In this document: piece after piece, positions 7,714 to 14,516 of the stretch
Layout: each line of letters opens with the position of its first letter
Position numbering within the stretch: the first letter of the stretch is position 1
NCBI GenBank assembly: GCA_020833255.1
Contig: JAJHQR010000004.1
Span: 1 to 45,639, forward strand
From: Desulfurococcaceae archaeon
GTDB taxonomy: Archaea; Thermoproteota; Thermoprotei_A; Sulfolobales; NBVN01
Direction: 5' to 3'
Length of the DNA stretch: 45,639 nucleotides
Notes under the pieces: model-generated
The model's database searches: none
What the model was told of the DNA's origin: nothing
Seen by the model: the letters and a program-made list of their open reading frames with translations, nothing else
Program-made: the position numbers and the translations under genes

Positions 7714-8958
7714 GTGTTAAGGGTAGCGGTAGTGCCTGTTGGTGGTGAGGCCGTTAGGTTAAGACCGCTCACTATAGAGACTTCGAAGAGCATGGTGAGA
7801 TTCCTCAACAAGCCTCTACTAGAGTTAGCGTTACTTCGATTAGCTAGGTCAGGTATTAGGGAGGTCTACTTAGGTGTTAGGGGTTACTACAACTACAAAG
7901 ACTTATTCGATTACTTCAGGGAGGGCTACTGGTTCAGGGAAAGATATGGCTTAAGAGAAGATCTGAGAATTCGCTACATGCCTAGATACGACACTCTCGG
8001 CAACGCTGACGCCGTAAGAATAATCATGGAGTACTACGAGATCAAGGAGCCTGTCGTAGTGATTCAGGGGGACAACCTATTCGATCTAGACGTGCAGGAA
8101 GTCTTTAAGGAACACTTAAGAAAGAATGCTTTCATGACGATAGGGCTTAAGGAAGTTGAGGACGTCAGGGAGTTCGGGGTTGCCGAGGTCTGTGAGGATT
8201 TAAGGATAAGGAGGTTTGTGGAGAAGCCGAGGCCGGAGGAGGCTCCGAGCAGGCTAGCTAACACAGGGATTTACGTGATTAACGCGGAGATAGTGGATTT
8301 CTTTAGGGAGGGTGAGGGTAGGAAGCTCCTTAAGGAGGGTAGGATGGATTTCGGGAATGACGTGATACCTAAGCTGATAGAGTTGGGGTTCCCCGTATAC
8401 GGATACTTAGTGAGTGGTTACTGGTTTGATGTGGGAACTCCTGAGAGATACTTGAAAGCCATGATCTACTTGCTCTACAACATGAGGGTTGAGGATCTGG
8501 AAGCTAAGGAGATATACGGCGGTGTCTTAGGGATGGGTAAATCTAAGATGTCGCTGAATTTACATGAAAGTATACGTAGGAGAATAGTTGAGAAAGACCT
8601 TGTCTTCGTAGGTAAGGCTTTGATAGGTAGGCACGTATCCATAGGCAGTAAATGCTACATAGAGGATTCAACAATAGATAACTACGTGGTTGTGGGGAAC
8701 AGGTGCGAGATAGTTAGGTCGGCAGTCATGGATAGGGTTAGGGTGGGTGATAGGGTTAGGATCGTTGACTCAATCATCGGTAGGCACGCGCTCATAGGCA
8801 GTAACACCACGATAATAAACAGCGTCATAGGGGATAATTCCGTGATAGGGGATAGCGTTAGGTTGGTTAACGTGAGGGTGTGGCCGCACGAGCAGGTATC
8901 GAGCAACGCGTCAATAGAGAACTACGTCGTCAGACCGCATTACACGCAGCAATACTGA
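7714..8958 (+). CDS. Sugar-1-phosphate nucleotidyltransferase with left-handed beta-helix
   Basis: A 414-residue GlgC/ManC/RmlA-like enzyme. The N-terminal nucleotidyltransferase domain has the activation loop in variant form (VGGEAVRLRPLT, then SKSMVRFLNKP), QGDNLFDLD near 117-125 for metal and sugar phosphate, VEKPRPEEAP and an FDVGTPERY segment. From about residue 295 to the end, hexapeptide repeats (VSIGSKC, VVVGNRC, ALIGSNT, SVIGDN) form a left-handed beta-helix. It should join an NTP to glucose-1-phosphate or a related sugar phosphate. The glycogen synthase gene follows 14 nt downstream, so ADP- or UDP-glucose supply is the simplest role. The GTG start follows a TAGGGG site. Confidence 0.87.
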   Translation: MLRVAVVPVGGEAVRLRPLTIETSKSMVRFLNKPLLELALLRLARSGIREVYLGVRGYYNYKDLFDYFREGYWFRERYGLREDLRIRYMPRYDTLGNADAVRIIMEYYEIKEPVVVIQGDNLFDLDVQEVFKEHLRKNAFMTIGLKEVEDVREFGVAEVCEDLRIRRFVEKPRPEEAPSRLANTGIYVINAEIVDFFREGEGRKLLKEGRMDFGNDVIPKLIELGFPVYGYLVSGYWFDVGTPERYLKAMIYLLYNMRVEDLEAKEIYGGVLGMGKSKMSLNLHESIRRRIVEKDLVFVGKALIGRHVSIGSKCYIEDSTIDNYVVVGNRCEIVRSAVMDRVRVGDRVRIVDSIIGRHALIGSNTTIINSVIGDNSVIGDSVRLVNVRVWPHEQVSSNASIENYVVRPHYTQQY

Positions 8959-8972
8959 CGGGGGAACCTACC

Positions 8973-10547
8973 TTGATAATCGCGCCTTCACAGATAAAGA
9001 AAGTGTGGATTATTACGTTTGAGTACGCGGGCTTAAAGAAGGTTGGTGGTTTGGGTGAGGCAGTCAAGAACATATCGGTAGCTTTAGGTTGCTTAGGTTA
9101 TGAAGTGACTGTGATCATGCCTTCACACGGGATTGACGCGGGTCAGGTCTTAGAGGGTGTTACGTGTAGTGGGGTGCGTGTTGGGGAGGACCGGTGGCAC
9201 TACCCCTACAACATAGGGTTTAGTACCTTGAACGTTGACGATAGGGTCAGGGTCGTGTTGGTTAGGGGGAATGACTCCAGGACGTCCACGATATTGGAAG
9301 ACCCCTACGTCTACGGCAGGGTTGAGGAGAAAGCTTGCCTGCTGTGTAAGGCCTTAATATGCTTAGCCGAACGTCTAGGCTTTCCAGACATTATTCACAG
9401 CAACGACTGGCACTCTGCGTTAGCCGCCATCACCCTGAAAATATACGCGGAGCATAAAGGACTAGCACTCCCCTACCTACATCAAGTACACTTACCAGGC
9501 TCCCCCAGGTTTTCCTGGCACTACGTATCGCCTGAGTGGTGCGGGGTTCCGGTAGGTCAGCACCGTGTTTGGAGAGTTTGCTGCCACCGTCTCGAGAACA
9601 CATACGATTTGTGGAGATCCGTGGACGGTAATCTAGAGGCGTTCGCTGTGTTAGAAGCTGACGCCGTCGCTACAGTGAGTCGCAGCATGATTAACGAGTT
9701 GCTGAGTAGGTACGGTGATTGGATTAGAGAAAAGACTTGCTTCATCTATAACTCAACTGACTGGAACTTGAGGGAAGTGGTTGATTACGCCTCAAGGAGT
9801 TACGGGGAGGTTGATAGAGCTAGGTTGAGGTGGGTCGTAGTCAGGGATTTACTCAGTAGGTATAGGGGTTTCGGTCAACTAACCGAGGGAGACGCTTTAG
9901 TGCTTAGTACCGGGCGCTTAACACCGCAGAAAGGCTTCGAACACCTGCTCAGAGGCTTCAGGGGGGTTGAGGAGGGTTTAAGGCTAATCATACTCGGTGT
10001 TTCAGTAGGTGATTTAGGTTACGAAGACTACATACGTCAGCTAATACTAGACTTAAGCGGGAGAGCGGTCTTAATCACTGAGAAAATAGATCAGCAAACG
10101 TATAAGTTACTACATTACGTAGCCAACGCTTTCGTAGTCCCCTCGATTTACGAACCTTTCGGGATAGTGGCTGTCGAGTCAATGGCTGTCGGCACCCCGG
10201 TAGTAGCGAGCGATGTCGGGGGGTTGAGCGAGATAATCAAAGACCTAAGGTTTCACGATGACGGATGCGGGCTCAAGGTTCGGCCAGGTAATGAGTCGGA
10301 ATTAGGTGAAGCTATACAGAACTTGTCATACCTAACGCTAATTAGCGAGACAGGTAAGGGTATCGAATACCTAACGTACGAGAACCTGAAGCAACTAGCT
10401 CGTAAAGACCCGGCGATAGGGCACGTAGTTAGGGAAAACTGTGTTAAGCACGTTGAAAGGAACTTCAGATTACTTAACACAGCCGAGCAAGTAGTTAAGT
10501 GTTATGAGTTAAGTAGGAAGATGGCTTACTACAGAGCAATAACCTAG
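8973..10547 (+). CDS. glgA: Glycogen/starch synthase (GT5 family)
   Basis: A GT-B glycosyltransferase that adds glucose from ADP- or UDP-glucose to alpha-1,4-glucan. The N-terminal domain has KKVGGLGEAVKNI (donor-binding KxGGL) and SNDWHSALAA. The C-terminal domain has STGRLTPQKGFEHLL and SIYEPFGIVAVES, the E-x7-E motif, then GTPVVASDVGG. The track gives a start at 8880, which overlaps the upstream gene by 79 bases. The in-frame TTG at 8973 follows a GGGGG site and begins with the expected MIIAPSQIKKVWIITFEYAG, so I place the start there (524 residues). It forms an operon with the nucleotidyltransferase. Neither branching enzyme nor phosphorylase is in the window. Confidence 0.9.
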   Translation: MIIAPSQIKKVWIITFEYAGLKKVGGLGEAVKNISVALGCLGYEVTVIMPSHGIDAGQVLEGVTCSGVRVGEDRWHYPYNIGFSTLNVDDRVRVVLVRGNDSRTSTILEDPYVYGRVEEKACLLCKALICLAERLGFPDIIHSNDWHSALAAITLKIYAEHKGLALPYLHQVHLPGSPRFSWHYVSPEWCGVPVGQHRVWRVCCHRLENTYDLWRSVDGNLEAFAVLEADAVATVSRSMINELLSRYGDWIREKTCFIYNSTDWNLREVVDYASRSYGEVDRARLRWVVVRDLLSRYRGFGQLTEGDALVLSTGRLTPQKGFEHLLRGFRGVEEGLRLIILGVSVGDLGYEDYIRQLILDLSGRAVLITEKIDQQTYKLLHYVANAFVVPSIYEPFGIVAVESMAVGTPVVASDVGGLSEIIKDLRFHDDGCGLKVRPGNESELGEAIQNLSYLTLISETGKGIEYLTYENLKQLARKDPAIGHVVRENCVKHVERNFRLLNTAEQVVKCYELSRKMAYYRAIT

Positions 10548-10599: not shown

Positions 10600-10607
10600 T
10601 TATATAA
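10600..10607 (+). promoter_or_regulatory. TATA box for the cysteine-rich microprotein
   Basis: TTATATAA lies 34-41 nt before the ATG at 10641. Transcription would start near 10629, leaving about 12 nt of leader that includes a GTGAGGAG ribosome-binding site. This supports the small ORF as a real gene. The rest of the 358-base gap (10548-10905) shows no other clear gene. Confidence 0.6.
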
Positions 10608-10640
10608 CCCTTCTTACAAACATACTTTTATGTGAGGAGC

Positions 10641-10772
10641 ATGGATGGCTTAAGTTCTTCCCTGATAAGGTGTGAGGATTTCTGTAGCGAGTTTTGCGAG
10701 TTAAAAGAAGATGAAGAGCTTGAGTTATGCTTAAACTCGTGTATGAGGTACTGTCTCTCAGCAAAAGACTAA
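10641..10772 (+). CDS. 43-residue twin C-x3-C-x3-C microprotein
   Basis: A short gene absent from the ORF track. It encodes 43 residues with cysteines at 11, 15, 19 and 30, 34, 38, so each half has C-x3-C-x3-C (CEDFCSEFC and CLNSCMRYC). The halves are joined by an acidic linker (ELKEDEELEL). If helical, each half would place its three cysteines on one face, and the two helices could pair as a hairpin with disulfides, or bind a metal or Fe-S cluster. There is no signal peptide or membrane segment. A TATA box, a GTGAGGAG site 1-2 nt before the ATG, and a CcdA-like thiol-redox membrane protein downstream all support a real gene with a redox or metal role. I do not recognise a family. Confidence 0.7.
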   Translation: MDGLSSSLIRCEDFCSEFCELKEDEELELCLNSCMRYCLSAKD

Positions 10773-10905
10773 GCTAGGGCTTGATCCTCACGTAGTTGAA
10801 TCCTGTCTAAAGATTTTAAACTTACTAAGCTAACAATTGTAGTGGCTAAAACGGGTGATTTCAAGGAAGTGATAATAATGTGTTCAGTGATGGAGGGGTT
10901 GGTTT

Positions 10906-11586
10906 TTGCTAGATCTTTCTAGCCTTATCTTCATGATCGTTTATTGGGCTTTGATAGATTCCGTTGATCCCTGCGTATTCGCTCTCTTCGTGGCTATACT
11001 GATTTCCGCGTCGTTAATAAGTGTCGGACACTTGATTAAGGTGGGGTCTGCCTTCATATTATCGACTTTCCTCGGTTACTTAGCCTTCGGCGCCCTACTA
11101 AGGTTCTTGGCCGGGGGGTTGCCTAAGTGGTTATTAAGTCTTGCGACACTATCTTACGGCTTAGTTACGCTAGTTAATAATCTCAGGAGCGGTGAAGTCG
11201 CTACCCAGCTCTTCGTGTGCAGGGAGGATGAACTACCTTGTAGGATAATCAATACCCTGAAACTCAACAAGATGTCGGGAACTGACGTCCTATCAACAGT
11301 TATGATAGGGTTTATAGCGTCCTTCACACTACTCCCGTGTAGTGCAGGCCTCTACATAATCTACAACGTCATAATGTCGGGGTATGGCTTCCTGACATGG
11401 TTGCTGGTATCCGTGTTATACGTAACCATATTCGAGACCCCCTTAATACTGATACTGCTGTTCTTCGCAGGTTTTTCCAGGATTAAAAAAGTGAACGAGG
11501 CTTTAATGAGTAAACAAAAAATCATTAAGATAATCGGGTCACTAACCATGATCTCTGTCTCAGCTTACATGCTCGTTTCAACTTAA
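10906..11586 (+). CDS. CcdA/DsbD-like membrane thiol-disulfide carrier
   Basis: A 226-residue membrane protein of about six hydrophobic segments. DSVDPCVFALF near residue 18 and TLLPCSAGLY near 143 match the two transmembrane Cys-Pro sites of CcdA/DsbD, which pass electrons from cytoplasmic thioredoxin to outside thiols. A loop between them has an additional cysteine pair (FVCREDELPCR), not part of the minimal CcdA core. The TTG start at 10906 follows a GGAGGGGTTGG site. The microprotein with six cysteines ends 133 bases upstream on the same strand, so the two may form a thiol-redox pair. No DsbA, thioredoxin or cytochrome c gene is nearby. Fit to the CcdA group is good though the sequence is divergent. 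Confidence 0.75.
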   Translation: MLDLSSLIFMIVYWALIDSVDPCVFALFVAILISASLISVGHLIKVGSAFILSTFLGYLAFGALLRFLAGGLPKWLLSLATLSYGLVTLVNNLRSGEVATQLFVCREDELPCRIINTLKLNKMSGTDVLSTVMIGFIASFTLLPCSAGLYIIYNVIMSGYGFLTWLLVSVLYVTIFETPLILILLFFAGFSRIKKVNEALMSKQKIIKIIGSLTMISVSAYMLVST

Positions 11587-11646: not shown

Positions 11647-11973
11647 GTGCAGGAGGAAACTACTTGGGGGATAATTGCTTGGATCATACCCTTGATAGGA
11701 GCCATACTAGCATTAATTCTGAGACCCAACTATAAGTACGCTAAGTACTGGGCATATCTAAACTTATCTTTCTTCATAGTAATAATCGTGAGCGCTATCA
11801 TAACGGGGGTCCTGAGCCTCATACCATTCATCGGCTGGATCATAAGCGCTCTAGTATGGGTTGCCTTACTCATCCTGTGGATCATAGGAATAATCAAGTC
11901 TGCTAGTAACGTGTATTGGAAGCCCCCGGTAATATACGACGTGGCTAGGATGTTAGGTATTGAGAAAATATGA
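11647..11973 (+). CDS. Small multi-pass membrane protein (DUF4870-like)
   Basis: A 108-residue protein with about three hydrophobic segments: WGIIAWIIPLIGAILALIL, a YLNLSFFIVIIVSAIITGVL segment, and a long FIGWIISALVWVALLILWIIGII stretch. A short hydrophilic C-terminus follows (PPVIYDVARMLGIEKI). The layout resembles the DUF4870/TM2-like group of small membrane proteins of unknown role. The GTG start at 11647 is weakly supported; no strong ribosome-binding site precedes it. It lies 60 bases after the CcdA-like gene and could be co-transcribed, but no functional link is visible. Confidence 0.6.
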   Translation: MQEETTWGIIAWIIPLIGAILALILRPNYKYAKYWAYLNLSFFIVIIVSAIITGVLSLIPFIGWIISALVWVALLILWIIGIIKSASNVYWKPPVIYDVARMLGIEKI

Positions 11974-12058: not shown

Positions 12059-12289
12059 ATGGGTGATGCCGAGACTAAGGAGAGGGAGTTAAGGATTGGA
12101 GACGTTAATCAGTTATGGTTTGAGTATGATAGGCAGACAGACATTCTCTACATAAACTTTGGTTACGACGTAGAAGAAGTCGATGAAGCTTTGCTAACGG
12201 AAAATAACGTGGTCGTGAGGATTAAGGGGGGTAGAGTGGTTTCCCTCACGGTGTTCGATTTCATGAAGAGAATAGGTTTTGAGACATGA
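12059..12289 (+). CDS. DUF2283 family protein
   Basis: A 76-residue protein with the DUF2283 core: WFEYDRQTDILYINFG, then a DEALLTENNVVVRIKGGRVVSLTVFDFMKR segment. DUF2283 proteins are small beta-rich proteins of unknown function, often near toxin-antitoxin genes or, in archaea, other short operons. Here it is joined to a large M28-type peptidase by an ATGA stop/start overlap, so the two are translationally coupled. A TATA-like TTTTTATG lies about 35 nt upstream. No toxin partner is present. Confidence 0.75.
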   Translation: MGDAETKERELRIGDVNQLWFEYDRQTDILYINFGYDVEEVDEALLTENNVVVRIKGGRVVSLTVFDFMKRIGFET

Positions 12290-13962
12290 GCGCCTCATCA
12301 ATACTCAAAGAAGTTAAGTCTGCTGCAAGGCCTTACGAACTCGTAGAACTGGTTGTGAGGTTATCCTCATATCACAGGATACAGGGCTCGCGCGAGTTGC
12401 TGGATGCAAGCGACTTCATAAGAGGGTTCTTAGAGGGAGCGGGCAATGAAGTGGGTGTCGAGGTCTTCAGCTACGCGAACCCCCCGAAGTGGTTGAGCCC
12501 CTTAGTTGGTTGGGACTTGATTGACGGTGAAGTACGTGTCACGCACCCGGAGAGAGGGGTTCTTTCCTCCGTTAAGAAAGCTTCTACAGCTGTCGTAGCA
12601 CACTCACCGCCAGGCGAGTTCTCAGGTCGAGTTAGTTACGCGGAGAGCGAGGATCTAATACCTGATGATGTTGAGGTACTACTAACTAGTAATAGGAGCC
12701 TGGACATGTATTTCGAGGCCGTCAGAAAGGGGGCTAAAGCCCTCCTAATATATAGGAGGGACGCCCCCTTAAGAGGCATACCATACGTGGGTCTTTTCCC
12801 CACCCCAGACGAAGCTTACAGGATGAAGGCCCCGGTATTATGCGTTCCTAGAGGGGGTGCGGAGAAAATTAAGACGTTGCTTAGTAAGGGTGAGAAAGTG
12901 TTTGTCGAGGGTTTCGTTAAATCAACGTATAGCGATCCGAGAGAGTTGAGGGTAGTCATGACCGAGTTCGGCGACGGCGGCAGGGAGATACACGTAACCG
13001 CACACTACTGCCACCCTAGAGGAACGGTCAACGATAACGTCAGCGGCGCGGCGACATTGCTATACGTAGCTAAGCTACTCAGCAAGCATTCCCGCGAGAT
13101 AGCGAGTAACTCACGAGGCTTTAAGGTCAGGCTCGTGTGGGTACCGGAACATTACGGGTCGGTAGCGTTAGTCAAGAAACTACTTGATGAGAACGTCGAG
13201 ATTTTGGGCGCTCTCAACCTAGACATGATCGGCGAAAAACAAGCTTTAACGAATTCCGTGTTAAACTTCATACGCCCTCCAGTACTACTCTTAAGCGAGT
13301 TCGAGGCACACGCATACAAAAACTTCTTCACAGGCTTAAGTAGTGTTCGGGGTTTAACAACAGCGATTACTAGGAAGCATCAACTTAGATTTGAGTTAAG
13401 GCCTTATGAAGCTGGGAGCGATCACGACGCGTACGTGGTTTTCGGGATACCCGCTATCTCACTAACTAACTGGCCTGACAGGTTCTACCACACGAACCTA
13501 GACTCAATCAATAAATTCAGTCCGTCCAACGCTCTGAGAATCGCGATCACAGCACTCAGGGCGGCACTGACCTTCGAGTTTAATAATCGACTCAAGCACT
13601 ACGTGAGCTTCGTGAGAGAATCAGAGTATTTCAGCCTCACAGCACCTATCTACAGGATACGTCAAGACCTTTACGAGCAACGAAGGATCTGCAGGTTCGC
13701 GAGGGAGTTGGCCGGGTACCCCTCCCCGCAATACCTTCTCAGAAAGGTCAAGGATGTTGAGGTTCGCGAGGAAATAAAGAAGTTCCTCAGTAAGGCTTCG
13801 TGGGCTGTGACAGCTTACGTAATAGCGAATACCTACTCTTCTTGCGGCCTAAGCGGCAACGACTTAAGGAAATCCTTGATTGGTGAGTTAGGGATTAAAG
13901 TAGGTGAGAGAGAGCTCGACATCGTTTTGAAGTCTCTGGAGTTACTGAAGGGGTCTCCCTAG
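12286..13962 (+). CDS. M28-type zinc aminopeptidase with C-terminal extension
   Basis: A 558-residue protein. After an N-terminal PA-like inserted domain (about 90-215, SNRSLDMYFEAVRKGAKALLI), the peptidase core has HYCHPRGTVNDNVSGAATLL (about 243), VWVPEHYGS (about 285), LNLDMIGEK (about 308) and GSDHDAYVVFGIPA (about 382) with FYHTNLDS. These carry the His, Asp, Glu, Asp and His residues that bind two zinc ions in M28 peptidases. The C-terminal 120 residues are helical and may be a winged helix. The closest fit is the archaeal M28/DUF4910 group. ATGA coupling to the upstream DUF2283 gene suggests an operon. Cytoplasmic; no signal peptide. Peptide specificity is unknown. Confidence 0.82.
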   Translation: MSASSILKEVKSAARPYELVELVVRLSSYHRIQGSRELLDASDFIRGFLEGAGNEVGVEVFSYANPPKWLSPLVGWDLIDGEVRVTHPERGVLSSVKKASTAVVAHSPPGEFSGRVSYAESEDLIPDDVEVLLTSNRSLDMYFEAVRKGAKALLIYRRDAPLRGIPYVGLFPTPDEAYRMKAPVLCVPRGGAEKIKTLLSKGEKVFVEGFVKSTYSDPRELRVVMTEFGDGGREIHVTAHYCHPRGTVNDNVSGAATLLYVAKLLSKHSREIASNSRGFKVRLVWVPEHYGSVALVKKLLDENVEILGALNLDMIGEKQALTNSVLNFIRPPVLLLSEFEAHAYKNFFTGLSSVRGLTTAITRKHQLRFELRPYEAGSDHDAYVVFGIPAISLTNWPDRFYHTNLDSINKFSPSNALRIAITALRAALTFEFNNRLKHYVSFVRESEYFSLTAPIYRIRQDLYEQRRICRFARELAGYPSPQYLLRKVKDVEVREEIKKFLSKASWAVTAYVIANTYSSCGLSGNDLRKSLIGELGIKVGERELDIVLKSLELLKGSP

Positions 13963-13973
13963 GGTGATTTCCC

Positions 13974-14516
13974 TTGTTACTGGTTTATTACGGTAAGGGT
14001 AAGGGCAAGACCACGGCCGCTCTAGGTATAGTGTTGCGTGCTTTAGGGAGGGGTTGGAGAGTCGTAGTGATTCAATTCATGAAGAGCGGCGTGAGTGGGG
14101 AGACCCGCTTCTTGAGGAGCTTATCACGCACGTATAGGAAGAGGATACACGTAATCAACGTGGGTGTGGAGGGATTCGTCAACCCGGAAAATCTAGGTGA
14201 TTTTAGAGCGTCAGCGACTATGGCGCTGATTTACGGCTTCTTCAAGGAGGTTTACCCGTCTTTAATGCGTAGGTCACGTCCTAACCTGGTTGTTTTCGAT
14301 GAGCTAGGCATAGCGTCCCATATGGGGCTAGTTGATGAGGGTCTACTAATCGATGTTCTAAGGAAGTTCGTAAGCAATCCCCGTAGACACGCCGTAATTA
14401 CTGGACGGTACGTACCTAGAACCGTTAAAGACCTCGCTGACTTAGTCACTGAGGTTAGGGAAGTAAAGCATTACTATAAAAAGGGTTTCGTTAATATTGA
14501 GGGCTTAGATGTTTAG
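13974..14516 (+). CDS. cobA: Cob(I)alamin adenosyltransferase (CobA/BtuR type)
   Basis: A 180-residue P-loop enzyme that transfers the adenosyl group from ATP to cob(I)alamin, forming adenosylcobalamin. YGKGKGKTTAALGIVLRALG is the nucleotide loop, followed by VIQFMKSGVSGET (a family motif) and VFDELGIASHMGL. VITGRYVPRTVKDLADLVTEV and KHYYKKG follow near the C-terminus. Length matches CobA. The TTG start at 13974 is 12 nt after the peptidase gene; the site upstream (AGGGTGAT) is good. No other corrinoid genes are nearby, so it probably serves salvaged cobalamin. Confidence 0.9.
   Translation: MLLVYYGKGKGKTTAALGIVLRALGRGWRVVVIQFMKSGVSGETRFLRSLSRTYRKRIHVINVGVEGFVNPENLGDFRASATMALIYGFFKEVYPSLMRRSRPNLVVFDELGIASHMGLVDEGLLIDVLRKFVSNPRRHAVITGRYVPRTVKDLADLVTEVREVKHYYKKGFVNIEGLDV

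Follow-up and report, generated by a model that had tools for sequence, protein, structure and literature searches.

The window, a stretch of 45,639 nucleotides from a Desulfurococcaceae archaeon (genome G000), carries a short open reading frame for a protein with six cysteines (six-Cys), which lies between genes for a glycosyltransferase and a CcdA-like membrane protein. The features of this region are listed below.

8880..10547 (+): glycogen/starch synthase-like glycosyltransferase, the upstream neighbour (Pfam PF08323, PF00534)
10600..10607 (+): TATA box TTATATAA of the six-Cys gene, from sequence alignment with G003 and G001
10632..10640 (+): candidate alternative start, an in-frame GTG that G003 and G001 also have; the product would be leaderless and 46 aa long
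10641..10772 (+): six-Cys helical-hairpin miniprotein, 43 aa plus stop; helices predicted at residues 2-18 and 24-41 (AlphaFold2)
10814..10821 (+): TATA-like box TTTTAAAC between the six-Cys and CcdA-like genes
10906..11586 (+): CcdA/DsbD-like membrane protein, 226 aa; a neighbour through rearrangement, outside the six-Cys system
12059..14516 (+): DUF2283, M28 peptidase and CobA/BtuR genes (Pfam; synteny table)

The codons of the six-Cys ORF occupy positions 10641-10769 (+), followed by a stop at 10770-10772, and its translation is MDGLSSSLIRCEDFCSEFCELKEDEELELCLNSCMRYCLSAKD. The cysteines at residues 11, 15, 19, 30, 34 and 38 are spaced C-x3-C-x3-C-x10-C-x3-C-x3-C and are mirror-symmetric around a centre at residue 24.5, in agreement with the coordinates and spacing reported by the first-pass annotation. 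At the DNA level the pattern has a single match in the window, and 100 dinucleotide shuffles produced none. No model in Pfam or NCBIfam covers the protein, and it is absent from these family libraries.

A TATA box belonging to the six-Cys gene had been proposed, and it is kept in the two closest genomes, G003 and G001, where a counterpart CTTTATATAA aligns at the same distance. The 'strong ribosome-binding site' described along with it is unsupported, because the GAGGAG motif stops one base short of ATG 10641 and lacks conservation. ATG 10641 is itself replaced in G001. GTG 10632 is conserved and located ~30 nt downstream of the TATA box, which points to a leaderless start; judged from the alignment, the 46-residue product of such a start is no less likely than the 43-residue form. 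G003 and G001 have AT-rich boxes resembling TTTTAAAC at comparable positions, and the box at 10814-10821 is probably a separate promoter for the CcdA-like gene.

Homologues were sought in 60 relatives with tblastn and, with a profile, in 214 genomes of the order. They were detected in 30 of the 31 genomes of the window's family, covering all 11 genera and including Zestosphaera, with one strong copy per genome; the sole family genome with no match is 82% complete. Two further families of the order also carry the gene, f10 (G039, G049 and G058) and f7, there in genus g67 (G172 and relatives) with a linker of 13 residues. C11, E12, C15, C19, C30, C34 and C38 are invariant in 29 aligned members at identities down to 26%, and the divergent homologues (26-30% identity) still have six cysteines and Glu12. 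The linker is 10 residues long in 23 of these 29. The 30 loci retrieved were chosen by similarity and not by cysteine pattern, and all 30 retain the pattern. Differences at codon positions 1, 2 and 3 number 1, 1 and 14 between G002 and G004, and 3, 2 and 17 between G000 and G003; change is thus mainly at third codon positions and the gene is under purifying selection.

This conservation is far stronger support for the gene than the cysteine pattern itself. The ORF is short and has no entry in the family libraries, as would be expected of a spurious frame in which the cysteines fell into place by chance, but it is conserved over 11 genera in which synonymous change is saturated, and there is next to no chance that such a reading is correct; conservation has already refuted it. 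Absent homologues or lost cysteines had been put forward as the signs of a false gene, and what was found is near-universal presence in the family with the cysteines invariant. The six-Cys ORF is confirmed as a genuine, previously unlisted gene, and it defines a new, strongly conserved miniprotein family of hyperthermophilic archaea that lacks a Pfam or NCBIfam model.

An exact pattern scan of a collection of 85,462 genomes used C-E-[DE]-x-C-x3-C-x10-C-x3-C-x3-C, in which the linker is fixed at 10 so that the f10 and g67 members are missed. There were 41 matches, 21 of them short ORFs of the six-Cys kind that all belong to the window's archaeal family. The others are low-complexity or unrelated cysteine-rich proteins, together with one protein from Geobacteraceae, apparently exported, that has a hairpin-like segment, C-E-E-K-C-x3-C-x10-C-x3-C-x3-C [L128:4304-4387 (+)], and is probably convergent. 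Among 398 sampled genomes of the phylum, none outside the window's family gave a full six-Cys match. Four exact matches in viral contigs are all cysteine-rich repeats, and a viral link was set aside.

AlphaFold2 with 22 homologues predicts a two-helix hairpin (residues 2-18 and 24-41; mean pLDDT 87), and a helical wheel places the cysteines on the hydrophobic face of each helix. The top Foldseek matches in the PDB are a 70-residue chain of Tetrahymena complex IV, Tim9-Tim10, nigellin-1.1 (2NB2) and a vicilin-buried peptide, the last three being helical hairpins held by disulfides. Their E-values of 1.2-4, weak because the chain has only 43 residues, are not significant on their own, and the top matches agree in kind. 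A sequence profile search of the PDB gave three chance-level matches, including nigellin-1.1 (E 4.8) and TIM8.

The analogy drawn earlier with twin-CX3C hairpins holds in that a symmetric helical hairpin is predicted and the inner four cysteines form a twin CX3C. The accompanying statement that the triple spacing differs from both twin-CX3C and CHCH hairpins overlooked the plant 6C alpha-hairpinins, which have a solved structure (2NB2). These are defined by CX3CX3CX4-20CX3CX3C, with 10-residue linkers commonest (PMC11591084), and the six-Cys protein shares this pattern and modal linker and has no other cysteine clusters. It also shares the helix-loop-helix of nigellin-1.1, as predicted (Foldseek TM 0.64/0.70), though there is no significant sequence similarity between the two (E 4.8). 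Disulfides in the plant class are 1-6, 2-5 and 3-4. However, plant 6C alpha-hairpinins are secreted peptides cut from longer precursors with a signal peptide, whereas the archaeal protein is the product of a single-copy, long-conserved gene and has neither precursor nor signal peptide. The ORF starts at most 13 codons before C11, which leaves no room for a signal peptide, and the N-terminus is polar.

Small Tim proteins, whose twin CX3C is joined by two disulfides and whose hexamers bind hydrophobic clients, share the twin CX3C and the predicted antiparallel hairpin (Foldseek TMq 0.83 to 2BSK), but the six-Cys protein has an additional outer cysteine pair, shorter helices and a linker of 10. 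The window protein has no match to zf-Tim10_DDP (PF02953), and 5 of 29 homologues match it with a best E of 0.07, none above the gathering score. CHCH (twin CX9C) proteins are different, having nine residues between the cysteines of each helix rather than 3 and 3. The modelled six-Cys protein resembles an alpha-hairpinin or a small Tim hairpin but is placed in neither group, as it lacks the secretion of the former and the Pfam membership of the latter. On the predicted fold, the six-cysteine hairpin known from plant peptides also occurs as a signal-less archaeal protein.

A further unlisted miniprotein family came up with the six-Cys profile: H...CR..C...C...C, with only the inner four cysteines (4-Cys). 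The genes located are as follows.

G000:C64:2777-2911 (-): 4-Cys gene (L072, L197)
L185:3526-3660, L186:905-1060, L187:4947-5093: 4-Cys genes
L188:4974-5135, L189:4944-5102, L190:2873-3031: 4-Cys genes

The consensus is H-x-VR-x-CRExC-x-ExGxSGxxFxxCVExCV, and 57 of the order's 214 genomes carry such a gene, among them 29 of the 31 in the window's family. The 4-Cys family occurs in the same genomes as the six-Cys proteins and is similar in size, but lacks C11 and C38, has an invariant His and Arg, and is more widely spread. In profile-profile comparison the twin CX3C aligns with C15/C19/C30/C34 (probability 92-95%), which would mean that C11 and C38 were lost or gained as a pair; the alignment rests largely on the cysteines and is suggestive, though no proof, of homology between the families. 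Weak similarity to zf-Tim10_DDP was seen in 9 of 34 4-Cys members (best E 0.0064). Within the 4-Cys family, 8 of 10 cases with additional N- or C-terminal cysteines have both together (Fisher p 4e-6, without correction for relatedness); more than one family is involved. Gain or loss of cysteines in N/C pairs points to cross-helix links, and paired gain would also fit a metal site. In several genomes the 4-Cys gene is near or head-to-head with dnaG.

Given its position, the six-Cys protein could have been part of a redox relay with the adjacent CcdA-like carrier, or a disulfide substrate of it. The two genes are in tandem in G000 and G003, and adjacent in G001 after a local inversion, but these three genomes of one genus are the only ones in which they are linked. 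Both genes are present but apart in G002 and G004, of the same genus, in G005 (Zestosphaera), and in other family genomes where both were found. In G002, G004 and G005 the six-Cys gene is convergent with the gene for S-adenosylhomocysteine hydrolase (AHCY) and divergent from DUF2283/M28/CobA, a block that faces it head-to-head in many related genomes, and the CcdA-like gene is head-to-head with an exported thioredoxin-like gene (in G002 matching PF13098, E 9e-4). In G000, G001 and G003, AHCY sits directly before the thioredoxin-like gene elsewhere in the genome; the G000 copy of the latter has a CPHC motif. Cuts at the six-Cys/AHCY and thioredoxin/CcdA junctions, with movement of the intervening segment, would give exactly both observed junctions, and since the reciprocal AHCY-thioredoxin junction is found in the same three genomes, the six-Cys/CcdA adjacency arose incidentally, through a single event within one clade. 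The breakpoint common to these genomes corresponds to window positions 10772-10906 and to G000:C13 (L195). Through this rearrangement ccdA lost its partner gene, the one for an exported thioredoxin-like protein, which came to lie next to AHCY. Elsewhere CcdA either faces the exported thioredoxin-like gene or carries a redox-type N-terminal extension, the six-Cys and CcdA-like genes each have their own TATA-like box, and the thioredoxin is extracytoplasmic while the six-Cys protein has no signal peptide. A CcdA relay or substrate role is hence very improbable. The suggested search for pattern homologues beside CcdA genes found no conserved linkage with ccdA, and the partnership proposed in the first-pass annotation falls with the single exchange of neighbours, a case of how one chromosomal rearrangement can yield a tempting gene-neighbour inference.

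Over the whole family no constant neighbour was found in the synteny table, and the six-Cys gene travels alone. It is beside AHCY in most genera, in an RNA-binding-protein/radical SAM context in g8, with FeoB in f10 g28, and with SerRS and a SufT-like gene in g67. The homologue in G049 is beside FeoB and an iron-dependent repressor and that of G058 is also beside FeoB; a SufT-like gene accompanies the homologue in G172, and a pyridine nucleotide-disulfide oxidoreductase that in G039. FeoB, SufT, the disulfide oxidoreductase and radical SAM were considered as metal or redox partners and rejected, each being confined to one lineage. The radical SAM gene, a convergent neighbour in most g8 genomes, and weak matches of a few members to NCBIfam models of Cys-rich RiPPs (E 0.055-0.34) raise the question of a radical-SAM-modified RiPP precursor. 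However, the scores are all poor and none of the models is matched at an E below 0.05, the radical SAM gene is convergent rather than co-directional, none was recognised beside the six-Cys gene in other genera, and the protein has no leader peptide, making such a precursor extremely unlikely.

What survives of the original proposals is a cysteine-bridged or metal-binding protein. We favour, as the reasonably probable reading, a cytosolic three-disulfide hairpin that serves as a binding module outside any CcdA relay. The TATA promoter would serve this gene only, and its product would be a helix-loop-helix miniprotein, soluble and located in the cytosol, with three disulfides (C11-C38, C15-C34 and C19-C30) joining the two helices like the rungs of a ladder. 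The cytosol of thermophilic Crenarchaea is typically oxidising, and the bonds would form there, probably via the protein disulfide oxidoreductase (PDO) of this genome (G000:C37), the gene for which scores above the NCBIfam cut-off. Cytosolic disulfides are reported as universally abundant in Crenarchaea (PMC3177088), and this, together with the presence of PDO, favours three disulfides. The protein may then act as a small heat-stable adaptor, subunit or holdase-like partner of another protein, and if the disulfides are real it is among the smallest candidate cytosolic disulfide scaffolds. The main rival, serious though we consider it rather unlikely, is a reduced, thiolate-rich metal binder, in which a dimer of hairpins would form a four-helix bundle with CXXXC holding Cu(I), as in Csp proteins, or Zn, and the protein would be a metal buffer or chaperone. 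In cytosolic Csp3, Cu(I) is held by CXXXC within one helix (PMC5171941); in the six-Cys protein the cysteines are on the hydrophobic face of both helices, and the FeoB, iron-dependent repressor and SufT-like neighbours in G049, G058 and G172 are in keeping with a metal role. Csp1 and Csp3, however, are four-helix-bundle monomers, with 18-19 cysteines in Csp3, compared with two helices and six cysteines here, and a Pfam search with the six-Cys protein gave no Csp/DUF326 match. No copper gene was seen among the neighbours examined, which vary between lineages, and the crenarchaeal cytosol with its PDO argues for the disulfide hairpin.

A broader and distinctly speculative proposal, to which we give little credence, is that the six-Cys and twin-CX3C miniproteins belong to a single archaeal family of disulfide hairpins in the cytosol and act in hyperthermophiles as small-Tim-like chaperones for hydrophobic or aggregation-prone clients. 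If true, a fold known elsewhere from mitochondria and plant peptides would have a functional equivalent in prokaryotes.

The identification of the downstream neighbour as a CcdA-like thiol carrier stands in part. The 226-aa protein itself has no Pfam or NCBIfam match, and AlphaFold from two sequences gave a pLDDT of 38, but longer relatives in the family match PF11139 (SfLAP) below the curated cut-off and one weakly matches PF02683 (DsbD_TM), a distant CcdA/DsbD likeness that makes 'CcdA-like' a reasonable description and not a proven assignment. In other genera the protein is 376-500 aa long (L178:4600-5838, L181:5007-6137 and L183:5226-6728), and the N-terminal extension has a CP-type redox motif in some and one weak glutaredoxin match. 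A DUF4870 membrane protein gene (window 11647-11973) adjoins the CcdA-like gene in G000, G002, G003, G004 and G005, and is nearby in G001.
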